64,000 nt of DNA from Pseudomicrostroma phylloplanum (lineage: Eukaryota; Basidiomycota; Exobasidiomycetes; Microstromatales). The first letter of the stretch is position 1. Each line of letters opens with the position of its first letter. A program made the translations under genes and the position numbers. The notes under the pieces were generated by a model. The model was given only the letters and a program-made list of their open reading frames with translations. It was not told where the DNA came from and did no database searches. This document shows, one piece after another, positions 46,249 through 62,551 of this stretch. The DNA lies in the NCBI GenBank assembly GCA_039545275.1, contig BCHS01000002.1:1984001-2048000 (forward strand), in the 5' to 3' direction.

Positions 46249-49200
46249 ATGTCCATCCCCTACTATCCAGCCTCAACTGGACTCCAGCAGCAGACTCAAC
46301 ACGGATTTCCCTCTTCCTCTAGCCCTTCACAAGGCAACATTCCCATAGCCTCCAGCGGCACCAACCAAGCTGCCAACGGCGGCGGTCCCACATCGCCCCT
46401 GCGCTCTGGTGCCTTCTTTGAGCGTCACAACATCTTTGGCCGATCGCGATCCTCCCTGTCTTCCGCGGCAGCCGCTTCTGTCCCGTCCCTCCGATCCGAC
46501 TCGCCGGACCCAAATCAGCTCGGGTACTCACCCGTGGAGCCAGCCTCGCCCACCAGCAGGAGGTCAGCATTTCGACCAGGCCTCCTCACCCGTCACTCCT
46601 CCTCTTCCACCAGCCGCATCCCACTGGAGCACGTGAGGTCCAACAGCTCTTCCAACAACGATAGAGTCGGCTTCCCTTCCTCTCGTCCATCAACCAGCTT
46701 CCGTCTCCCCCAAGACGAGCAAGAAATGTCCGGCAGCAACGGGCCCAGGATGGCAGGCAGCAACCAGATGGTCAGGACCGAAAGCTCCGGCGGCACAGGC
46801 TCCAGCACAAATCCCTTTGGTAGGATGTTCAGGAGGTACAGTCAGGGTCAGGGTGGGCATGTCAGGACAAGCTCCAATGCTAGCGATGCTCCTCCGCAAC
46901 TGGGCAGGACTGCCACACCCACGGGCACCAGTGGCAGAACTACAAGTACCACAGGCAGAAACCTGCCAGCCTTGGACACAGTTTCCAACAACGACCCAGT
47001 GCCGGCTGCCATCGTGTCTGCCACCCCCGAGCGTTCCCTTTCTGAGCAAGGCAGTGGTGCCGTGACCAATGGACCCCCTGCTTCTGCTCCCGCGGCAACG
47101 ACGAGCACGACGGCCGGGTCTTCCTCTACATCTGGTACCAACCCATCCCTTCAGGCTGGTGTCCATCGCCTCCGTCTCGTCCCACACCTCGAGGCTACAC
47201 GCTCACTTCACTTTGAGCCAATCGAGAGGGATGTCCGAGAGAGTGCCACGCCCGTCAAGATTGGGCGCTTCACCGACAGGGGTCCCACTGCAGCTGCAGC
47301 TGCAGCTATCGAAGAAACAGCTTCAAGTCGGCCCGTCGGGTCGACTGCCCCCTCTGGTTCGGCACCTGGCAACCGAGGAGGCGCAGTACCTACAACGGCC
47401 GGTGGTGGAGGTCGCATTGACTCTACTCGGATCGCGTTCAAGTCAAAGGTCGTCTCTAGAGGCCATGCAGAGATTTGGTGTGAGACTGGCGGCAAGTTCT
47501 TTATTCGAGACACCAAGAGCTCTTCTGGTACATTCCTGAACCACATTCGTCTGGCTGGCGCCAATATCGAGTCAAAGCCATTCCCAATCAAGGATGGGGA
47601 CATCCTGCAGCTTGGAGTCGACTATCAGGGTGGTACAGAAGAAATTTACCGCTGTGTGAAGATCAGGGTCGAACTGAACCGCGGATGGCAGCGCGAGGCG
47701 AACCAGTTCAAGTGAGTAGAGATTCCGGGGTCACTCGCGATCGCGAATGCTTGCTTACATCCTTACTCATGCGCCGCCCATCACAGTGTCAATGCTTTGA
47801 GACAATTGCGAGCTCTGCAAGGTAGCCCCATCCAGACGACCTCCTCAAAGGCCGCTGTTACAAGCCCCGGTGCCGGAGAGCTCCCTACCAACCGTCAATC
47901 TATGAACGTGACGGACTGCTGCATCTGCCTCTTCTCAGTCACAGTCTGCCAGGCCCTCTTCATTGCACCATGCTCTCATGTCTTCCACTACAAGTGCATC
48001 CGGCCGCTCTTGAGCTCCCACTATCCGGGCTTCTCTTGCCCTCTGTGCAGGACCTTTGCCGACTTGGAAGCAGACGTGGAAGAGGACGAAGCTTGGCAGG
48101 AGGCTCTACTGAAAGAAGCACAAGCTGGGGAAGCCGATAAGGCGCGAGGACCTTCTACCCCCATGGTCGAGCTGCCCAGCTCTGTTGGCACCAGCGGCCA
48201 ATCGACCGAATCTCCCTTCGTCCCTTCGCAAAGCGCCAACCAGCGAGAGGGTTCCTCTTCGGTGCCCTCACAACCCTCGGTCCCCTTCACGTCCAGCCGC
48301 CTTCGTCAACAGGTGCATCACGATGGAAGCAGTGTAGGCGGGCACGAGGGCGAACAGCGGCCCGCCACTGCAGTTGCCGATACTGCCTTCCTCGAAGAGC
48401 AGTACGATGGCACCATGGTATTCCCTGAAGGCTCCCGCAGGGCATATGGGCGGGGGTCTAGCAGAGATAGCAATCACAACGAGGAAGCAGACGACGATGA
48501 CGAAGAGGAGGAAGAGGACGACGAAGAAGAGGAAATGCTACTCGACAATCGTACTGGCTTTGGAGCGGATGTCATGCACGAGATCGACCGTATCTCCGAG
48601 GAGGTGGACAGATCAGGGTCTTCATCCTTTGCTAGAGGCACTAGCTCCCCACGCGGCATACAGGCTCGTCGGGGCTCTCAGCCCATTGCGATTCAGGGAG
48701 TCGAGGGCGGCAGATTCCCCGCAGGCCAGACAGCTGCAAGTAGCGGCTTCTCCCCGCTTGAGGAGGCTCGTACCCCAGTCAATCAACACGTGCTGAGTGT
48801 ACTAGCAGAAGCACCTCCCCCAAGCAGTGCAGCTGCTCGACGTCTGGCGGCTCAGCGACAGCAACAACCCTTGGGAGGTGTCGGGCTGCCCAGCTTTGGC
48901 GGAGCATCGTCTGATCTGCTCGACGTTGGCGCTCCTCTCAGCGGACCGAGGGGATCGGATGCTGGCTCGAGGAGGGGCAGCAACGTCTCCGAGGACGCCG
49001 GATATCTGACGCCTGCGGAAGGCAGTCAAGATGGACATGCAGACGTCGACGCCAGCAGTGGCGTGCATCGTCCCACCTCAGGAGGAGCTAGGGCAAGTCC
49101 GTCTGCCAATCGTCGATCACCTGGCAGCGGTAGTGGTAGCTCACAGGAGCAACGTCAAGGTCAAGGTGCGGCAGCCTCTACCTCTACCTCTTCCAATCGC

Positions 49201-49545
49201 GCAAGTCCCTCCACTGCTGGGGACATGGAGGTGGACGAAGATGGTGAGGATGAAGACGACGAAGATGACTATGCCATGGTGGATGCCACGAGCGGACCTC
49301 GCGGAGCGGACGCACAGGGTAGTCGTCGTGGCTCTGCCATGGGAAGTAGTACAAAGGGTAAGAGCAGGAAGAGGGAGACGAGCGCCCATGGCAGCTTTGA
49401 CAGTCAGGGAAGCCATAACAACCAGCAACAGCAACAGCAGCAGCAGCAGAGACATGGTCAAGCTTCTCCTACGGCACTGCAGGGAGGTACAGCCAAGGTC
49501 AAGTCGATGTTCAGGAGGGCATCGGGCGCAGGAGGTGCTGCGTGA
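46249..49545 (+). CDS. FHA-RING ubiquitin ligase, Dma1/Dma2/Chfr type (2 exons)
   Basis: Exons 46249-47711 and 47787-49545 join in phase to 1073 aa. Residues 1-300 are Ser/Thr-rich and disordered. An FHA phosphothreonine-binding domain spans about 305-480 (PVKIGRFTDRG, KVVSRGHAEIW, FIRDTKSSSGTFLNHIRL), interrupted by a low-complexity Ala/Gly insert between the first strands. A RING domain follows at about 533-577 (CCICLFSVTVCQALFIAPC, HVFHYKCI, CPLC). The last 490 residues are a disordered acidic, Ser- and Gln-rich tail, far longer than in yeast Dma1 (416 aa). Family role: spindle-position and mitotic-exit checkpoint and septin control. Confidence 0.92.
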
Positions 49546-50145
49546 GAGAGTGGAAGAGAGAGGGTGATGGTGCGGTATGTCAAGAGGAGAGAAGGCCGGG
49601 GGTGGTGCCTGCGTTCGTATCTTTCGCCGGTCCCTGTGATCGAAGTCTTAGAAGAGAGAGAGGGGGCAGGTGATGTGCTTCTCGATCCTCCTCGATCCTC
49701 CGCGAGGTTTTCGTCTTTTTGTTTTGTTCCTATGTTGTTCTGGTTGCCGTGCTAGGCGACCTTCTGCTTCTTTACCCCTCACCATGAATATATGACTCCT
49801 TAGATTGTAGGCGATGTCTAGTGGGGTGGGCGAGAGGAGGTCGCAGGCGGGCAGGCACTGGCACTGGCGCGGCGGCAGGAGGCGAGGCTTGCAGTCCAGG
49901 CGTGGCGCCTCGCCTGTGCTTCTCCTCCACTGCGTCTGGCGTCGAGTCAAAGGCGGGGCACAAGGAACGGCGAGTTTTCTTTTGCATGGCTGCCGCACGC
50001 ACATCTTCCTGCCGACGACGAGGTAGACGCAACGCAACGCATATACTCTACTCTACCATCCTACCATCACCATCACCCCCAACCCCCAACCCCCAACCCC
50101 CACCTCGTCTGGCATCACTCAACGTGCCGCTTCCCGCAGCCAGGC
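49546..50145. other. Intergenic; includes a C5A2 repeat before the fusion gene
   Basis: 3' region of the FHA-RING gene and promoter of the DAHP synthase-ASADH gene. A GC-rich imperfect palindrome lies near 49890-49915. The perfect C-rich repeat at 50076-50101 is listed separately. No gene is supported. Confidence 0.55.
50076..50101. repeat. Four C5 runs with AA spacers (G-quadruplex motif on minus strand)
   Basis: CCCCC runs at 50076-50080, 50083-50087, 50090-50094 and 50097-50101 are each separated by AA. The complementary strand is G5 repeated four times with two-base loops, an ideal intramolecular G-quadruplex. It ends 44 bases before the fusion gene's ATG, in the leader or core promoter. 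Confidence 0.9.
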
Positions 50146-52647
50146 ATGTCCCTCTTCCACACCACCCACAGCCCCCTCTCGGCGCTGGACGATACCCGCA
50201 TCAAGTGTATCCGCCCCCTAATCCCCCCGCAGATCCTCATCGAGGACTACCCCCTCAGCGAAGCCGCCGCCCTCACCATCTCCACCGGCAGAGCACAGGC
50301 AGAGGCCATTGTCAAGGGCGAAGATGACAGACTCGTCGTAGTCGTTGGACCTTGCTCTGTTCACGATGTTGTGGCAGGAATCGAGTACGCAAAGCGTCTG
50401 GCAGCCTATGCCGATACGGCCAAGGATGACCTGCATATCATCATGCGCGTCTACTTTGAGAAGCCACGAACCACCGTCGGATGGAAGGGACTGATCAATG
50501 ACCCTGACCTTACTGGGTCCTTCAACATCAACAAGGGACTTCGACTTGCCAGGGGCTTCCTACTACAGGTCAATGACCTCGGTTTGCCCGCAGGTACCGA
50601 GTGGCTGGACCCCATCACGCCCCAGTACAATGCCGATCTGGTCAGCTGGGGAGCCATTGGTGCCAGGACTACCGAAAGTCAGGTGCACCGCGAGCTGGCT
50701 AGTGGTCTGTCCATGCCCATCGGTTTCAAGAATGGTACAGACGGTAGCATTCAAGTCGCTGTCGATGCCATCAAGTCTTCCTCGTCCCCGCACTCCTTCC
50801 TCTCCGTCACAAAGCAGGGCATCTCTGCCATCGTTGAGACCCACGGGAACGACGCCTGCCATGTCATCCTACGAGGAGCCAACTCTGGCCCCAACTACTC
50901 TCCTGAGCACATTGCCAAGGTCAGCGCTTCCCTTGAGAAGGCCGGCCTGCCAAAGAAGATCATGATCGACTGCTCTCACGGTAATTCGGAGAAGAAGCAC
51001 GAGAATCAGATGAAGGTCGTCAAGAGCATCAAGGAGCAGCTGGGTGGTGAAAAGGGAGCGAACATCATCGGAGCTATGATCGAGTCTCACATCAACGAGG
51101 GCAAGCAGAATATCCCCAAGGAGGGACCTGCTGGACTGAAGTACGGCCAGTCTATCACTGATGCTTGCATCAACTGGGAGACGACCATTGAAGCTTTGGA
51201 GGAGCTGCGGGCCGGTGTGAGGGCAAGAAGGAGCGCAGGCTTCGCTACCGAGCTGCCCACTGTGGCTCGCACTGGGAGGGAGCTCTCGAGGGGTGGGCCC
51301 GCTACTTGGTCGCAGAGCAGCACACCCACCCGCTCCCTCAGCGCTGTCCGATCCGTCGGCGGCGGTAACTCGGAGCAGCTGTCGATGGAGAGCTCCATTG
51401 AGGACATGGCCGGTCTGGGCGAGCGATTCGGCAAGGGCTTCAACGATCAAGCGCTAGTCGATGGGCTGGGCAAGGTCGCTTCTCCTGCCCCTGCCACGGC
51501 CACAAGCGGTCAGAACTCGTCCCTGGTTGCACCTCCTGCTTCCTCCACTGTTTCCTCTTCTTCTCAGAAGCTCAAGGTCGGTGTGCTGGGAGCAACAGGA
51601 ACGGTCGGACAGCGCTTCATCCTGCTCCTGGCCAACCACCCCAACTTTGTCGTCCACGCACTGGCAGCATCGAGTGCCTCAGCCGGGAAACCCTACGCAG
51701 AGGCCGTGGCAGGGCGCTGGAAGCAGGCTCGTGCTATTCCCGAAGAGGTGAGGTCTCTACAGGTGACAGAATGTCTCGTCGAGCACTTCAAGGACTGCGA
51801 CGTCGTCTTCAGTGGTCTAGACAGCGGACCAGCCTCTACCGTCGAGCCTGCCTTCCGCGCTGCCGAGCTGCGCGTCTTCTCCAATGCTCGCAACTACCGC
51901 ATGGACCCACTCTGCCCCCTCGTGGTCCCCCTCGTGAACCCATCTCACTTCAACATTATCCCGCACCAGCGCGCCTCGCTCCCGACACCCACCAAGCGCG
52001 GCTACATCATCACAAATGCCAATTGCTCCACGACGGGAATCGTCGTCCCCCTGAAAGCCCTGCAGGACGCTTTTGGTCCCCTTGAAAAAGTCGTAGTAGC
52101 CACCATGCAAGCCATCTCCGGTGCGGGCTACCCAGGTGTCAGCTCATTCGACATCCACGATAATGTCGTTCCCTTTATCTCTGGTGAAGAGGAGAAGATC
52201 GAATCCGAGACGGCCAAGATCCTCGGCAGCCTCAATGGCTCCTCCACGGCTTTCGAGCATGTCCCAGTGCAGATGTCAGCGCACTGCAATCGTGTGCCGG
52301 TGCTGGACGGACATACCGAAGTCCTCTCTGTACGTTTCGCCCATCGACCTCCCCCCTCCATCGAGCAAGTGAAAGAAGCCCTAAGAAACTACACCTGCGA
52401 GGCACAACGTCTCTCCTGTCCCTCCGCCCCAGCACAAGCCATCACCCTCCACGAAGAACCAGATCGGCCTCAACCCCGTCTGGATCGAGACTGGCAGAAT
52501 GGAGCTGGTGTCAATGTTGGACGAGTCAGAGAGTGTGGAGTCTTGGACGTTAAATTTGTGGTGCTGAGTAATAATGTGCAGATTGGAGCGGCGACGAGTA
52601 GTGTGATGAATGCGGAGATTGCATTGAGGATGGGGTACCTCTCGTAG
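50146..52647 (+). CDS. Bifunctional fusion: DAHP synthase + aspartate-semialdehyde dehydrogenase
   Basis: One uninterrupted 833-codon frame. Residues 1-363 are a full class I DAHP synthase (yeast Aro3/Aro4 are about 370 aa): GPCS 68-71, EKPRTTVGWKG 105-115, GARTTESQ 172-179, GFKNGTDG 193-200, DCSHGNS 275-281 and ESHINEGKQ 313-321. Residues 364-474 are a Ser/Ala/Thr-rich linker. Residues 475-833 are a full aspartate-semialdehyde dehydrogenase (yeast Hom2 is 365 aa): GATGTVGQRF 482-491, catalytic Cys627 in NANCSTTG, and the His723 loop NRVPVLDGHTEV. All key residues of both enzymes are present. The first condenses PEP and erythrose 4-phosphate; the second makes aspartate semialdehyde toward Thr, Met and Ile. 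No stop or splice signal separates them. Confidence 0.93.
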   Translation: MSLFHTTHSPLSALDDTRIKCIRPLIPPQILIEDYPLSEAAALTISTGRAQAEAIVKGEDDRLVVVVGPCSVHDVVAGIEYAKRLAAYADTAKDDLHIIMRVYFEKPRTTVGWKGLINDPDLTGSFNINKGLRLARGFLLQVNDLGLPAGTEWLDPITPQYNADLVSWGAIGARTTESQVHRELASGLSMPIGFKNGTDGSIQVAVDAIKSSSSPHSFLSVTKQGISAIVETHGNDACHVILRGANSGPNYSPEHIAKVSASLEKAGLPKKIMIDCSHGNSEKKHENQMKVVKSIKEQLGGEKGANIIGAMIESHINEGKQNIPKEGPAGLKYGQSITDACINWETTIEALEELRAGVRARRSAGFATELPTVARTGRELSRGGPATWSQSSTPTRSLSAVRSVGGGNSEQLSMESSIEDMAGLGERFGKGFNDQALVDGLGKVASPAPATATSGQNSSLVAPPASSTVSSSSQKLKVGVLGATGTVGQRFILLLANHPNFVVHALAASSASAGKPYAEAVAGRWKQARAIPEEVRSLQVTECLVEHFKDCDVVFSGLDSGPASTVEPAFRAAELRVFSNARNYRMDPLCPLVVPLVNPSHFNIIPHQRASLPTPTKRGYIITNANCSTTGIVVPLKALQDAFGPLEKVVVATMQAISGAGYPGVSSFDIHDNVVPFISGEEEKIESETAKILGSLNGSSTAFEHVPVQMSAHCNRVPVLDGHTEVLSVRFAHRPPPSIEQVKEALRNYTCEAQRLSCPSAPAQAITLHEEPDRPQPRLDRDWQNGAGVNVGRVRECGVLDVKFVVLSNNVQIGAATSSVMNAEIALRMGYLS

Positions 52648-52943: not shown

Positions 52944-55900
52944 CTACAACCGCTCCTGTACAAACTCCTCATCCCCGTCCCTCTCCCCTTCCCTCTCCCT
53001 CTCCCTTTGCCCCTTCTCCTCCAGCAGCTCCCTCATCTCCTCCCCAGCCCGCTTCAACTCCTCCAACCGCTGCTGCATCGTCTCGAACCACCGCTCTGCA
53101 TTCTCCTTCATCACGCGGAGGTGCTCCTCCAAGGCGTGCTGAGCTGCTGCGTGTCGAGCGAGATCGGCAGAAGTGGGGCTGGCGCTACTGGATGAGTGTG
53201 AGGACGGGTAGAAGGGGGGTGGGAGGGGGAGGAAGGGAGGGAGGATGGTGCTGGTGCTCCCGCTGGTGCTGGCGCTTGTTGGGCCGGCTGATGGTTCGGG
53301 GGAGGAGGAGATGGCCAAGGAGATCTTGCTTGATGTTGAGCGCGTCTTACTTGCTGCCTTCTCTTTCCCTGTGGCCTTTCCTTTGCCTTTGCCCTTGGCT
53401 TGGACGAGCGGAGGAGGCTTCTTGCGACGCCCTGCAGGACTGACCGCCTCATCTTCGGCACTCTCGTCGTCCTCGTCCTCGTCTTCCCCTTCCTCTCCCC
53501 TCTCGTCATCGTCGTCGTCCGCTTCATCCGTCCGATCAGCGTAAGAGTACAAGCTGGCAAGTCTCCTCTTGCCCGCCGCTGCCGCCTGCCGCTTTGGCCT
53601 GCCAGACCCAAGGTTGGTGTCCCTGGGTTTAGAGGAACAAGCTTCCTGCGACGGGTCCTCCTCGTGGTCTTTGTCGTCGGCAATGGTGATGGCTGAACTG
53701 GAAGCGGTAGCGGCTGATTTGCCCCTGCGAGAGTAAGTAGGTGCTGACTTGCTCGTTGATACTCTGCGTGAAGTGAGAGGAGGTGACGAGGGCTGCTCAT
53801 CCTCATCTTCGACATCCTCCTCTTGCCTGGCCGATGATACTCTTCCCTTGGCGGCGGCCTTGCTCTTCTTCGCTTTCGCTTTGGTCTTGGGCGGTGCTTT
53901 GGATTTCGCAGGAGAGACTGCAGTCCTTGGAATAGGCGATTGCCCCTCTTCCAGCTCTGCATCCAGCATAGATTCGTCCTCTGCACCTTCAGACTCTGCA
54001 TGCCTTGCCTTCTTTGTCTTCCTGGCAATCTTGACGACACTGGCAATATCCTCAAAAGGTTTACTGTATCGCGCAGGAGGTTCCACCTGTCCGTTATCCA
54101 CCTGCGGGACCCCACCAGCTTCATACTTGTGGCCTTCCATCTCTCGGCAGGCTCTCCAAGCATGCCAGAGCATCGACTTGAGCTGCAGCACGTCCTCCTT
54201 CCAGCTGCGCACCTTGTTATTGCTCAATGCCCTAAACTCGGCCGTGAGCCGGAAGCACCTCGCCACATTCTCCGGAGAGACAAAGTCGACGGCAATCTTC
54301 ATGCAGTCCGTCAGGTTGCAGACCTGGTGAGCGCATCCGGCAGGGATGAAGATGGCGTCGTGGGCCTTCTGGTATATCCGCCAGCTGCGCACACCCTTGG
54401 TGTCCCACAGTCGTTGACGATCGCCAGCATCAAGGAAGTACCTCTGCGAGTGGATCGGGTCTTCGTAGGCCTCCACCCTCCTCGTCTCTCGAAGATATTC
54501 GCGGATCTTGTTCGAGTCCTCGGCGGGAAAGATGTCCCAGGCAGCAACGCCGTCGCGGTGGGCTAATGGGAGCTCCTCCGCATTAAGCGGCTTGGCGGCA
54601 TGGTACATGATGTTGACAGCATCGGCTATGTCCATGTGAAGTCTTGTGGATCCCATGCCAACCTGATCTTCGCTGGATGGCCAGGCGTTGTACATCTTGG
54701 GTCCCAGATCGGGAGCATTGGCATTGGTGGGGAAGAGCGCGGAGATGTTCATCCGCCCATCGCGACGAGTAAACGCAGGAACAGGCAGAGCTTTGTTGAA
54801 GTGCTTGTAGAGGTCGGGGAAAGCATCGTCGAATGCCGAGCTTGGCGGCCAATCCTTGAGCTTCCAGACTCCGTTGCCGAGCTTCGCCATCTTTTCTTCG
54901 GGAGACATGCCAAACGTGGAAAAGAAGTCCGAGACGTACACGTACTGATGCGCATTATCAGCGTCGCAGCGCGTAATCATGCATGGTTCTTCTTGCCACC
55001 GGGAAGTGCAGAAGCTCTCAGGACCCCACTCTGCAGGAGGGGCTGCGGAAGATGCACGTTCGGTTTCGCTGACGTCGCTGCGTTCTGCTTCTTCGCCTTG
55101 CTGGGGTTCGCGAATGCAATCATGAACGATCAGAGGTTCGCCTCTAGCCCAAAGTTTCCGGAAAGCCGCCTCGTTCTTCCCTAAGCGGAGCTCCGTCAAC
55201 GGATGCGAGCCGATGGCTTGATCCACTGTAGGGCCATCGAGGCTCTTGTACCATTCCCGTGTCCGTTCCTCCAGAGGGACAGATTGTGCGGCCACTGCTG
55301 GAGGCGCATTCCCCTGGGCCGCATCAAGCTGCACAGGCTGTTCTGGCAATTGGGATCCAGCCTCGGATGAGCTAATCTTCATAGATGTCACACTCTGCTG
55401 TAATCTTTCCATCTCTCTGACCTCGTCTTGCAGCTCTTCGACCCTGAATCTTGTCAAGGGCCACAACTCGCTGAACTTATGCACCCTTTTGAATCGACAC
55501 TTCTCGACAGACGCGGTTACGTTCCACCTGCCAGGATTCTTCTCCTTGCTCTTGAGTACTTCAGTGCATTCGAGGCAGTATTCCTTTCCGCAGCATTGAC
55601 AGCAGTACGAAGCAGAAAAGAGCGAAGTCAAGCAGAAGTCGCACTGAGGGCGTATCACGAGCTCGGGGTTGCGCCACAGTGTTTCAGGCTTGGCAGCGTG
55701 ATCTAGCTCCGTCTTCATAGTCTGACATAGAGAAGCGGCGACAGTCCGTTTGATATCGCTGATGCTTTCCGAGTCAGCGGCGGGATAGAGCGACTTAGCT
55801 CTCGGATATTCGAATCTGACATTTCGAGATACCTCGTCTCCAAGGAAAGGCGCGTAGTCCAGCGCATCAACGTCATCCGGGTCAGCCAATGTGAGCTCGC

Positions 55901-57197
55901 CGTCCAGATTCCGCAACGGAAAGATCCGGAGATTAACAAAGCGGCAGGTGTCGCCCATTTGCCTTACTGTGCAGTGCGTACATTTGTACCATCGCGCCCA
56001 ACGGCTGTGCTGGCAATTTGATGCTTGATACTCGTACCATCGATCGCTCATCTGAAAGCGAATGATCTCCGAGACGGCAGCAGAGGGCCGAGGATTTTTC
56101 TTTGCTTTCGCCTTTTTCTCGGCCTGAGGGCTGCTGGCCTCCTTGGCAGCATCACCAGCTTCTGTAGGGACTTCGGCATACGACGCCCGAATTTTGTTTG
56201 ATGCAGCGCGCCGAGGCCTCGAGCCAGGTCTGAAGTCTTCGGCCATCGCCGCCTCCAGTGCCGCTCGATCAGCCTGGTCCAAGTCTTGAGGTATACTCTG
56301 CTGCGATGCGAGCAGCATAATCGCATCGTCTTGGCCGGAACGGGCGGCAGAACCGGAGGGACCAGGCTCGCCAGCCGTCTCATCTACCACCATTTCGAAC
56401 TGGGGAATCGAAGCTCGAGCAGACATCCTCCTGCGCCCCGTTGGAGCAGGTGGAGAGGAGGACTCGGTCTTTTGCTTCTTGGCCTTCCCAGGTTCCTTCT
56501 TTACGGGTGCAGCCCTCTTAGCGGCCTTCGATTTCTGTGCGGGACTCGAGGAAGATGGGCCGGCCTCGACATCCTCGTGCTCTAGAACGTGGTCACCGTC
56601 CGAGATGTCTGATAGTGGGGAGCTACGGTTCGAGAAGCCTCCCGCTCCGGTACTGAGATGCTCTCCCTGTGTCCGATCAGACGAAGTGGAGTGGCCATGG
56701 GCTGGAGGAGCGGATGATGTGATAGATGGAGCTTGGACCATACTGCTCGGCGGGTGCAGAGGTGTCAGCTTGGGGAGGAGAGGAGTGACTGGACCCGAAG
56801 AATGGCCGACATACGGCTTTCTCTCATTGAAGTGGCTGCTGATGAGCCGCGCTCTGTCGTCCGAATTCAGCGCGGACGGCCGTGAATCCAGATCCTCTTG
56901 CTTGACAGCGTGTGTGGCATTGCTGCCTACGTCTAGCTGCTGGTGCTGAGCAACATCGCTGGCAGGCGTAGTGGGGTCCTCACTATCGCTGCCTTCCCTG
57001 CTGCTCTCCGTGTGGCTGTTTGTCAGAGCCTCGGTAGCGATGCCGGTCCCACTTGTCCGGGTCTCTTCTTCGCCGGAGGAAGGAGCAGGCTCATAAGTCC
57101 CTCGGTAGGAGCTAAACATGGTCGATCCGCCTGACACAGGCATGGCAGGTGATGTGTGAGCCATACTGCTAGCATAAATGCTGTAACCGGTGTTCAT
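52944..57197 (-). CDS. JmjC-domain histone demethylase-like protein (KDM3/JMJD1 type)
   Basis: Single-exon 1417-aa protein. The first 350 residues are disordered with basic and acidic blocks. A cysteine-rich zinc region lies at about 385-550 (YKCTHCTVRQMGDTC, CDFCLTSLFSASYCCQCC, EYCLEC), followed by the KDM3-like HPLTELRLGKNEAAFRKLW and EPLIVHDC. The JmjC domain holds the Fe(II) ligands H854 and D856 in TRLHMDIADAVN and H957 in GCAHQVCNL, all present, so an active 2OG-dependent demethylase is likely, with H3K9 the family's substrate. The C-terminal 370 residues are disordered and basic/acidic with a final coiled coil. It is convergent with the fusion gene. Confidence 0.93.
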   Translation of the reverse strand: MNTGYSIYASSMAHTSPAMPVSGGSTMFSSYRGTYEPAPSSGEEETRTSGTGIATEALTNSHTESSREGSDSEDPTTPASDVAQHQQLDVGSNATHAVKQEDLDSRPSALNSDDRARLISSHFNERKPYVGHSSGPVTPLLPKLTPLHPPSSMVQAPSITSSAPPAHGHSTSSDRTQGEHLSTGAGGFSNRSSPLSDISDGDHVLEHEDVEAGPSSSSPAQKSKAAKRAAPVKKEPGKAKKQKTESSSPPAPTGRRRMSARASIPQFEMVVDETAGEPGPSGSAARSGQDDAIMLLASQQSIPQDLDQADRAALEAAMAEDFRPGSRPRRAASNKIRASYAEVPTEAGDAAKEASSPQAEKKAKAKKNPRPSAAVSEIIRFQMSDRWYEYQASNCQHSRWARWYKCTHCTVRQMGDTCRFVNLRIFPLRNLDGELTLADPDDVDALDYAPFLGDEVSRNVRFEYPRAKSLYPAADSESISDIKRTVAASLCQTMKTELDHAAKPETLWRNPELVIRPQCDFCLTSLFSASYCCQCCGKEYCLECTEVLKSKEKNPGRWNVTASVEKCRFKRVHKFSELWPLTRFRVEELQDEVREMERLQQSVTSMKISSSEAGSQLPEQPVQLDAAQGNAPPAVAAQSVPLEERTREWYKSLDGPTVDQAIGSHPLTELRLGKNEAAFRKLWARGEPLIVHDCIREPQQGEEAERSDVSETERASSAAPPAEWGPESFCTSRWQEEPCMITRCDADNAHQYVYVSDFFSTFGMSPEEKMAKLGNGVWKLKDWPPSSAFDDAFPDLYKHFNKALPVPAFTRRDGRMNISALFPTNANAPDLGPKMYNAWPSSEDQVGMGSTRLHMDIADAVNIMYHAAKPLNAEELPLAHRDGVAAWDIFPAEDSNKIREYLRETRRVEAYEDPIHSQRYFLDAGDRQRLWDTKGVRSWRIYQKAHDAIFIPAGCAHQVCNLTDCMKIAVDFVSPENVARCFRLTAEFRALSNNKVRSWKEDVLQLKSMLWHAWRACREMEGHKYEAGGVPQVDNGQVEPPARYSKPFEDIASVVKIARKTKKARHAESEGAEDESMLDAELEEGQSPIPRTAVSPAKSKAPPKTKAKAKKSKAAAKGRVSSARQEEDVEDEDEQPSSPPLTSRRVSTSKSAPTYSRRGKSAATASSSAITIADDKDHEEDPSQEACSSKPRDTNLGSGRPKRQAAAAGKRRLASLYSYADRTDEADDDDDERGEEGEDEDEDDESAEDEAVSPAGRRKKPPPLVQAKGKGKGKATGKEKAASKTRSTSSKISLAISSSPEPSAGPTSASTSGSTSTILPPFLPLPPPFYPSSHSSSSASPTSADLARHAAAQHALEEHLRVMKENAERWFETMQQRLEELKRAGEEMRELLEEKGQREREREGERDGDEEFVQERL

Positions 57198-59724: not shown

Positions 59725-62430
59725 TCAGGGCAGAGCGTCAAGGCTGCCGCCAACCTTCTTGAGCTGCTCTGCTAGCTGATGCAGTGTGAGGCGGTGGAGG
59801 AGGCGGTACCGCTCCAACTCTTGCGCGACCACAGACTCGGGGCCTGCCTGCTTGACAGCTGCTGCTTCAATTGCCTTGATGATAGGGAGCCGGCGTTGAA
59901 GATGCTTTCTTTCGGCATCCGTCTTCCGTGTCTTGCAGCCATTGCCGTACACCAGGACTGCTGGTGGCTGCCCAACCAAGCCGTGCCGCCACTCCATCCA
60001 GAGATCGGTGACAGTAGTGATACTCCGGTCCATACAGAATCCAGTATTGGAAGACCGAGGCAGGAGACCAGCAACTGAGCGCAGCTGGGCATCGAGTGTC
60101 TGTGTCAGCAACTCCACGGGGTTGGACGCTGTTGCGGTGGAAGGAAGAGGGGAGGTTGGAGCATTGGTGGCGGCCAAGGCAGCAGTGCCAGAAAGACGGT
60201 CTGAATCTCCACTTGGCATATCTGCGGGATACATGACCTGCGTCTTGACGACCGCCTTCCCAGTGGCAAGGTCCGTCATCAGCTGGGCCATTGGATTCAG
60301 GATCCCCTTGACCTCTCGAAAGTTGCCCTTTGATGAAATGTCAAGTTGTTCAAGTCTGCCGTGCATTGCCGCACTGAGATTGGCCAGTCTCTCGGCAATG
60401 ATCGGGATGCAGCCTTCGAGAGCAAGATGCTTGGGATTGGCCTGTGCTGCTGCTGCTTGCAGGGCATCTACCCGGTAGCGCTGATACATCTCTGAAGCAA
60501 AGATAGGGTGCCGGAGGAGGAAATGCTGGGGATAATGCTTCCCCAGCATGACCGAGTCCTGCAGCCAGACCCTGGCAAGGACCTTGAGGAGATTCAAGAA
60601 ACCAAAGCCCGCAATGTTTGCCTGACATCTGTCATTTGCGTGCATTCTTGTCAGCCACTCAGAGGCTTCTGGAAACACTTGCCCTACAAGCCCCTCGGGC
60701 ACAGGCACGTCCCTTGGCAGCCAGAAGGAGCCACCTCCTGCCTCCCATCCGCAAAGGACACGCATGGCCTCTCTGGGCAGCGTTGTCAGGTATGCCTGCA
60801 CCATCACACTTGAGTCCCACCGGCCTGCCCGCCGGATGCTTCCCTCGCTGGCTCCACCCAGGTCTGCCATCCTTGCTGCCGAGCCTCCAAAAGTGTGGGT
60901 CACCTTGCTGCTCACAATGCCAGCCGCAATGAGGAGTTGCTTCTGTGCCTTTGCCTGAGCCACTTGTGTGATTGGCTTGGTGACCTCTTTCTCGGAGTGG
61001 GGGAAAAGGTAGAGGTCATACCAGTCCTGCGCTTGTGCAAAACTGGGAAAGCGGGTGGTGCTGGGTGGGCAGACTCTGGCCGACATGTGGAACATGTAGA
61101 AGAGCCACATGGCAAGTGATCCAAGCAGGCACTGGTCCCACTCTTTGGCTCGCATTGTTGCTCCCACCTCTGACCGACCTTCTTTGTTTGTCTTGCCGTT
61201 CCTCAGCACGGCCACCAGTGCCGGGCATTCGCCCATGCCACCCTCATTGGGAAGCAGCACGCTGTGGAGATCAGCAAGCTGTAGTTGCCGGCAGTCGTTT
61301 GCGCGAAGCAGGTTGTGGTGCTGGAAGAGAAACATGCAGCGGTCTTGGAGGCCTTCGGCAGTGTTTCTGGCCAGGCCATGGTTAGCCAGGGTGGCCACCT
61401 GATAGAAGTTGTTGTAGCCGTCTTGTGTGGAATTGGTGCCACGGTCCTTATATGTCCTCTTGCTCATCTCAAAATTGGTGGTCTTGATTGACTTCAGGAA
61501 GCGGCTTACAGCACCCATCCGTGGGTTGTCATTGCTGTTCATGTTCCGCTCCACCTGTAAGGACCACTCACTGACAACAGCAGCAATGTAGGTGTTGATG
61601 TGGGATGCACTGAGGTAGATTGTCCGAGGCTCCCCACCAAGCATAATACCGCGCTCACCATTGTCATCGTCGTCATCCTCCTCTTCCCCCTCCCCCTCCT
61701 CCCCCTCCATTGGCACGTCTGCAGCCTGATAATCCGGACTCTTGGCAGCCAGAGTGACCTCAGCCAAATTCTCTGTCAACCGCTCCCTGGCTTTCTGTGC
61801 CTCCTCCTCCTTGGCCAGCCGTCGCTGCTCTTGGGCAGAAGGTGCAAACCTGCCACAAGCAAAGCGCTTCCGGAAGACAACCTCCTCCTGCAGGAACGCC
61901 ATCAGCTTATCGCCGGTGATGATTCGTGCATGGGGCTGCCCTGCATAATGGAAGTCGCACCAGCTGAAGAACTCCTGCACTTTGGGCTCGTAGCATTTCT
62001 TGGTCTTGGTTGCCCTTACTTCCAGTCTGACTTGACGGGCGTCTTCCAGTAAGCCTTCCACCCGGGGAGAGTTCACGCTGCTATATGGATAGTGGCGCAG
62101 TCTGTTGATGGGACGAGGAGCCATGGAGGCCCGGCTGCGTTGGTGGCCACCCATGGGCAGAGGGACTGGAACAGATAGGTGGGAGTACTGTGGCAAGCAG
62201 TGAGATGGAGAAGCCCCTGCAGGCCTGCCCTTGGCGCATGGCTTGCAGTCTGGCGTGTGGTCTGGCTGGTTGAACCAACTCCAGTTGGTCGGCCTCTGCC
62301 GTTGAAAAAACTCAAGTTGGCCAGAACCCTCCCGCGTAGGATTGCTGGGACACCCTGCCATGTGGCGCGCGTCTCTGGCAGGGCGTGTCCCAGGTGTCGC
62401 GCGCGGGACACATGCCGGACCGTGGGACAT
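59725..62430 (-). CDS. Crypton-type tyrosine recombinase with Gcr1_C-like tail
   Basis: Single-exon, 901 aa from the ATG at 62430; the frame extends upstream only to a TTG at 62460, and later in-frame ATGs (for example 62124, MAPRPINRL) are possible. Catalytic-core signatures: R376 in LLRANDCRQLQLADL, K413 in LRNGKTNKEG, H512 in VTHTFGGSAARM, W538 in RRAGRWDSS and Y547 in QAYLTTLPREAM. The usual second Arg of HxxR is missing: it reads HTFG. A helical SAM-like DNA-binding part precedes the core. The C-terminus (TVTDLWMEWRHGLVGQPPA, RKTDAERKHLQRRLP) resembles the Gcr1_C DNA-binding domain found in fungal Cryptons. Acidic run at about 220-240. Confidence 0.85.
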   Translation of the reverse strand: MSHGPACVPRATPGTRPARDARHMAGCPSNPTREGSGQLEFFQRQRPTNWSWFNQPDHTPDCKPCAKGRPAGASPSHCLPQYSHLSVPVPLPMGGHQRSRASMAPRPINRLRHYPYSSVNSPRVEGLLEDARQVRLEVRATKTKKCYEPKVQEFFSWCDFHYAGQPHARIITGDKLMAFLQEEVVFRKRFACGRFAPSAQEQRRLAKEEEAQKARERLTENLAEVTLAAKSPDYQAADVPMEGEEGEGEEEDDDDDNGERGIMLGGEPRTIYLSASHINTYIAAVVSEWSLQVERNMNSNDNPRMGAVSRFLKSIKTTNFEMSKRTYKDRGTNSTQDGYNNFYQVATLANHGLARNTAEGLQDRCMFLFQHHNLLRANDCRQLQLADLHSVLLPNEGGMGECPALVAVLRNGKTNKEGRSEVGATMRAKEWDQCLLGSLAMWLFYMFHMSARVCPPSTTRFPSFAQAQDWYDLYLFPHSEKEVTKPITQVAQAKAQKQLLIAAGIVSSKVTHTFGGSAARMADLGGASEGSIRRAGRWDSSVMVQAYLTTLPREAMRVLCGWEAGGGSFWLPRDVPVPEGLVGQVFPEASEWLTRMHANDRCQANIAGFGFLNLLKVLARVWLQDSVMLGKHYPQHFLLRHPIFASEMYQRYRVDALQAAAAQANPKHLALEGCIPIIAERLANLSAAMHGRLEQLDISSKGNFREVKGILNPMAQLMTDLATGKAVVKTQVMYPADMPSGDSDRLSGTAALAATNAPTSPLPSTATASNPVELLTQTLDAQLRSVAGLLPRSSNTGFCMDRSITTVTDLWMEWRHGLVGQPPAVLVYGNGCKTRKTDAERKHLQRRLPIIKAIEAAAVKQAGPESVVAQELERYRLLHRLTLHQLAEQLKKVGGSLDALP

Positions 62431-62551
62431 CGGGTGGAACCAACACTTGGCCGTGAACAAGTTCGTACCTCGTTATACCTCACGAGAGAAGACTACGTGA
62501 GCTTCTCCGGGACTACAAGCTGCTCGCCATCTATCCCTTAGGCGCAGCACG

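Follow-up and report, generated by a model that had tools for sequence, protein, structure and literature searches.

The window analysed here, a 64,000-base stretch of Pseudomicrostroma phylloplanum DNA, contains a frame of 833 codons that translates into one protein with its sole stop at the end (Table 1). No intron is apparent in the frame, and a search of the organism's own genome returned it as an unbroken match of 100% identity at C2:2034146-2036644. The protein combines a DAHP synthase (DAHPS) with an aspartate-semialdehyde dehydrogenase (ASADH), as indicated by the Pfam domains DAHP_synth_1 (residues 53-349, 4.4e-91), Semialdhyde_dh (residues 477-602, 8.3e-29) and Semialdhyde_dhC (residues 636-811, 3.7e-38). 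NCBIfam models span almost the entire length of each half. TIGR00034 (aroFGH, residues 15-362) scores 508 bits against a cut-off of 173 and places the first half among the type I DAHPS enzymes, while the second half exceeds the cut-off of NF006416 (residues 474-832) and scores 371.5 bits against 301.2 for TIGR00978 (asd_EA, residues 476-827), which places it among ASADH enzymes of the fungal/archaeal type. The best solved relatives are AroG over residues 15-362 and the ASADH 5cef over residues 474-831. The original prediction that two full-length enzymes share this frame is thus borne out by translation, by both sets of domain models and by the solved relatives. An artefact of assembly or gene modelling is unlikely, as the frame is continuous in the DNA and recurs in Microstroma glucosiphilum.

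Table 1. Parts of the fused DAHPS-ASADH frame, in window coordinates
Feature	Position	Strand	Basis
Fused DAHPS-ASADH frame, 833 codons plus stop	50146..52647	+	Translation, Pfam, own-genome match
DAHPS core, residues 15-362, type I, AroFGH/ARO3-like	50188..51231	+	TIGR00034, AroG alignment, Pfam
Native DAHPS C-terminal tail, residues 363-443, predicted disordered	51232..51474	+	Motif of unfused relatives; pLDDT
Junction segment that looks new, residues 444-465, fast-evolving	51475..51540	+	Alignment of three fused sequences
Ser-rich segment, residues 466-474, like an unfused ASADH N-terminus minus Met	51541..51567	+	Comparison with sister genera
ASADH core, residues 475-833, fungal/archaeal type	51568..52644	+	NF006416, TIGR00978, 5cef

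Less than 600 bases upstream of the frame there are TGACTC-type sites at 49793 and 49944, where about 0.4 would be expected from the 38 sites on both strands of the 64-kb window. These sites are weak evidence that the fused gene may be under general amino-acid control. Frames near the fusion (46249-49545, 52944-57197 and 59725-62460) encode FHA, RING-finger, JmjC (minus strand) and NDC10_II/GCR1_C proteins.

The catalytic motifs of both halves had been described as intact, and this holds for the metal-binding and catalytic residues, all of which could be located in the sequence. Aligned with AroG, the DAHPS half has C70, R101, K106, R174, K195, R243, H278, E313 and D339 as counterparts of C61, R92, K97, R165, K186, R234, H268, E302 and D326, the metal and substrate residues of that enzyme. 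The catalytic set of ASADH (the Cys of NANCSTTG, Gln, Arg and His) is present as C627, Q655, R716 and H723. The fusion also keeps S220, the Ser of an SVTK motif that belongs to the Phe site. Additionally, it keeps D155, Q160 and K223 as equivalents of D154, Q159 and K222, which one report names as Phe-site residues of Aro3 (PMC10349828), with Aro3 numbering transferred by motif and spacing rather than by alignment to Aro3. Since these Phe-site residues are kept, inhibition by Phe is likely, and the DAHPS half is likely a Phe-sensitive enzyme of the ARO3/AroG type. The same report states that the Aro3 N-terminus contributes to the inhibitor site of the partner subunit (PMC10349828); the N-terminus of the DAHPS half stays free in the fusion.

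It had been proposed that proteins with both domain sets be sought in related fungi. A search with the full-length protein scored 8000 candidates, of which 560 passed the threshold, and the best 120 of these are considered here. The two best matches, P0002 from M. glucosiphilum (831 aa, 97% identical) and P0003 (756 aa, 75% identical), each carry all three Pfam domains and share with the window protein the same enzyme pair in the same order on a single chain. No other protein among the best 120 of 560 matches has domains of both enzymes. A distant fusion would be expected to rank high because both halves score, and genes broken by introns could escape. P0003 has no alignable counterpart to the first ~80 residues, probably due to an intron in its contig. 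These fused relatives, including that of M. glucosiphilum, are already deposited under single-enzyme names (3-deoxy-7-phosphoheptulonate synthase; aspartate-semialdehyde dehydrogenase). The longest contig recorded for P0003 measures 14,121 bases, as does that for P0262, a Malassezia-like DAHPS that is not fused, and this may be one and the same contig.

Several other long proteins appeared in this search. The high-scoring rows P0004-P0010 are apparently tandem DAHPS proteins with two copies each; P0005 has two DAHPS copies, and the SVTK motif occurs twice in P0004, P0005, P0006, P0008, P0009 and P0010. The names of several of these rows point to marine protists (chlorarachniophytes). Among the best 120 of 560 matches there are also composite proteins that join DAHPS to the cytochrome c1 domain PF02167 (8 rows), DAHPS to PF12348 (4 rows, Coemansia) and ASADH to ribosomal S4e PF00900 (6 rows), and these may be either real or merged gene models.

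The region between the two enzymes had been regarded as a 111-residue Ser/Ala/Thr-rich linker. The frame is indeed open throughout, but most of the segment does not appear to be linker, as ~81 residues belong to the native C-terminal tail of DAHPS, ~9 are ASADH-like and only ~22 (444-465) look new. The DAHPS tail closes with GFNDQALVDGLGK (residues 431-443), and residues 363-443 are considered native tail because a GFNDQALVDGLGK-type motif closes the DAHPS of unfused relatives. For example, unfused DAHPS proteins of sister fungi end in GLGKGGRQ, GLGKARRQA, GLGTGALSS or GLGKGTGAGAV, whereas the fused proteins continue past this point with GLGKVASP... or GLGRSGTL.... The regular expression FNDxxLxxLG[KR] matched 37 of 236 scanned rows (a set in which DAHPS and fused rows are mixed with some of ASADH), in every case at 0-7 residues from the C-terminus, and the named rows among the 37 are Ustilaginomycotina. 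Microstromatales tails read FNDxxLxxGLG, one residue longer, and hence fall outside the 37; a shorter FND occurs in some Pucciniomycotina DAHPS tails. FNDxxLxxLG[KR] is a conserved short motif that closes the disordered DAHPS tail (P0242-P0284) and that has become internal in the fusion. As a DNA pattern searched across the whole genome, the tail motif gave 4 forward and 0 reverse matches versus 1 and 1 for a backward control, which does not point to a docking motif used throughout the genome. Two GFND copies occur in the tails of all 4 unfused Microstromatales rows examined versus one in all 3 fused rows, possibly a shared loss.

On the ASADH side, residues 466-474 are similar to the Ser-rich starts that unfused ASADH has in sister genera (compare MSSSNQSKLKVGVLG, MASQQASSSKLKVGILG, MSAQASSSKLRVGILG). 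Unfused N-termini read MSSSNQSKLKV, MASQQASSSKLKV and MSAQASSSKLRV, and the fused counterpart reads SSTVSSSSQKLKV, without the Met. Across columns 443-465 the M. glucosiphilum protein matches at only 12 of 21 positions and the alignment has 2 gaps, as compared to 345/348 in the DAHPS core and 351/360 in ASADH, which indicates that the junction evolves fast. The distance between GLG[KR] and KLK is 31, 29 and 34 residues in the three fused proteins (counted by eye), and the junction is open in all three even though its sequence and length vary. A stop-free linker is by itself within chance, as 1224 of 20000 mononucleotide shuffles of the linker also had no in-frame stop; what raises the case above chance is that P0002 and P0003 exhibit the same domain order in one chain.

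An AlphaFold2 model built from a 47-row alignment folds both halves with a mean pLDDT of 76.0 and a pTM of 0.49. Residues 369-472 have pLDDT below 50 and are predicted to be disordered, and the pTM suggests that the halves would have no fixed mutual arrangement. The pLDDT is also low at residues 106-128 and 658-679, which contain conserved active-site loops, and the model is weak there.

Jaminaea and Parajaminaea encode DAHPS and ASADH as separate proteins, which indicates that the fusion joined two resident genes. Their unfused DAHPS proteins (Jaminaea P0244, 84% identical across the DAHPS half; Parajaminaea P0243, 89%) have the tail motif near the C-terminus as in the fusion but stop at the tail. 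Similarly, the ASADH proteins of Sympodiomycopsis (P0122, 80% identical across the ASADH half), Jaminaea (P0124, 77%) and Parajaminaea (P0125, 77%) stand alone at 366-370 aa with their own Met and a short Ser-rich start, unlike the fused ASADH with its missing Met. In a DAHPS tree the fused rows, the unfused Jaminaea and Parajaminaea rows and two further rows form a 7-row group (100/100). Without the tail, P0003 falls outside the other six Microstromatales rows (89/80); with the tail, and with three long-branched rows removed, the three fused rows group together (82/87, not starred). In the ASADH tree Microstroma adjoins five unfused Microstromatales rows (89/89) and P0003 lies outside the Microstromatales group in a part of the tree without resolution, but holding the fused rows together is not rejected (p-AU 0.523). 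The history may comprise a single fusion event, two such events, or a single event with splitting afterwards.

The contigs of the unfused genes were compared by hand in 11 named smut species, with Tilletia left out for its several copies and short contigs, and on the understanding that short contigs cannot reveal separation. The longest contig of the DAHPS row differs in length from that of the ASADH row in 10 of the 11 (Parajaminaea, Tilletiaria, Thecaphora, Violaceomyces and six Malassezia), while in Jaminaea rosea the longest contigs of both rows are equal in length (3,091,552). The latter suggests, but does not prove, that both genes are on one scaffold in this species.

Whether separate HOM2 and ARO3/ARO4 copies exist had also been raised, and the answer differs for the two enzymes. 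A second, unfused DAHPS is present on contig C6 (L003:1381-2772) with three exons that are 51-55% identical to the fused half. No other ASADH was found, as the ASADH half matches only itself in the 17.08-Mb assembly of 20 contigs. The Pfam pair PF01118 and PF02774 does occur at one place besides the fused gene, on C1, but this was rejected as a second ASADH since it is an ARG5,6-like gene in which AA_kinase and NAT domains also occur. The C6 paralog contains the motif FMGVTTQG, with Thr where yeast Aro4 has K229 and with Gly at the position where Tyr-type enzymes have Gly. The Aro4 change K229L is reported to abolish Tyr inhibition (PMC10349828), and the C6 paralog may be poorly inhibited, with weak Tyr inhibition. 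A second DHQ-synthase-like gene with DHQS_C and DHQ_synthase domains (L015, C1:1998828) is present besides AROM.

We favor, with a probability of roughly 0.72, a lineage-specific fusion in the Microstromatales that yields a single chain with two independently active enzymes on a disordered arm. A resident Phe-type DAHPS gene (ARO3-like) would have been joined to a resident ASADH gene (HOM2-like) within this order of Exobasidiomycetes through loss of the stop codon of the former and the start codon of the latter, which would have been a few dozen bases apart. The product would be one chain with a disordered arm of ~105 residues, the greater part of which is native DAHPS tail. Its first half would convert PEP and E4P into DAHP under inhibition by Phe, and the ASADH half would convert aspartyl phosphate into aspartate semialdehyde for synthesis of Thr, Met and Ile. 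The product of neither half feeds the other, so this is not a pathway-coupled fusion of consecutive steps, and no channelling is expected because no metabolite is common to both active sites. The main effect of the fusion would instead be joint expression, the one consequence that can be counted on, and joint assembly. We infer activity of both halves, expression as a single chain, Phe sensitivity and an absence of cross-talk between the halves. The halves would be present in equal amounts only in the absence of an internal start, an early transcript end or cleavage. The coupling might serve amino-acid starvation, as the original prediction suggested.

Such events define the strongest alternative, in which the gene is fused but the enzymes work separately because ASADH is freed by an internal start, by a promoter within the gene or by proteolytic cleavage of the arm. 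We consider this unlikely. The long arm predicted to be disordered would suit such a release, and there are in-frame Met codons at residues 414 and 421 (51385 and 51406) that are conserved in M. glucosiphilum. However, Met 421 needs no role as a start because it is inside the conserved native DAHPS tail, and by eye the tails of P0003, lgn333, Parajaminaea and Jaminaea have Met there too. The 333-base linker also has no TATA-like box and no AATAAA or ATTAAA, signals that are loose in fungi.

A regulatory fusion, where binding of Phe or assembly of DAHPS alters the activity or placement of ASADH and the supply of aromatics thereby gates the Thr/Met branch, or where aspartate semialdehyde feeds back on amino-acid control, is more doubtful still. 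The fused DAHPS is of the Phe type by its Phe-site residues, and it would carry the entire ASADH complement, given that no unfused ASADH was found in the genome. In S. cerevisiae, accumulation of aspartate semialdehyde is reported to speed degradation of Gcn4 (PMC4117449). Against this, the model, with its disordered arm and low pTM, does not suggest that the domains form an interface, and the Phe site is on the free N-terminal side. It is just as improbable that, with all ASADH tied to a Phe-sensitive DAHPS, Phe-driven changes in the DAHPS half, or co-assembly of DAHPS and ASADH oligomers through the arm, determine how active the Thr/Met/Ile branch is or where it is located. If true, an obligate cross-pathway enzyme would coordinate aromatic and aspartate-family synthesis at the protein level.

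There is very little to recommend reading 51475-51567 of the junction (93 bases, GTCGC...TTCTCAG) as a stop-free in-frame intron, and the protein would be fused in any case, with a shorter arm. A pyrimidine-rich run does lead up to the CAG before AAG-CTC-AAG, the length is divisible by three and GC3 of the junction is 0.48 as compared to 0.65-0.69 in both enzyme cores. But the donor GTCGC is not GTRNG-like and is unlike those of the C6 paralog, whose two introns start GTGGGT and GTGAGT, no CTRAY branch-like site occurs in the linker, and none of the three fused proteins has a stop in this stretch. Finally, aspartate semialdehyde is a dehydroquinate precursor in M. jannaschii and haloarchaea (PMC4162585), but an archaeal-type route from it into aromatics is close to inconceivable here, as PF01959 (archaeal-type dehydroquinate synthase) was not found in the genome by a search whose control was positive in 3 of 14 genomes, each of them archaeal, while the genome does have an AROM-like gene that combines DHQ synthase and EPSP synthase domains and DAHPS itself is part of the classical route.

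The original prediction knew of no described fusion of these enzymes, and no paper recognisable as describing a DAHPS-ASADH fusion was found in the open-licence literature that we searched. Multifunctional enzymes of amino-acid synthesis are known, and include AROM, aspartokinase-homoserine dehydrogenase and DAHPS-chorismate mutase. Like the present fusion, AROM places several biosynthetic enzymes on a chain and the other two are likewise single chains, but each joins steps of one pathway, as most fused biosynthetic enzymes do to our knowledge. In contrast, the present fusion unites an enzyme of the aromatic pathway with one of the aspartate pathway, and what appears to be new here is a fused biosynthetic enzyme that crosses pathways, which is unusual. 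The new joint formed where a conserved disordered tail ends, and only ~22 residues were added. ASADH is under discussion as an antifungal target, and in these fungi its gene also carries a second essential-type activity. Present in at least two lineages and containing the sole ASADH found, this cross-pathway fusion provides a natural test of whether such a joint is a tolerated accident or a form of metabolic regulation.
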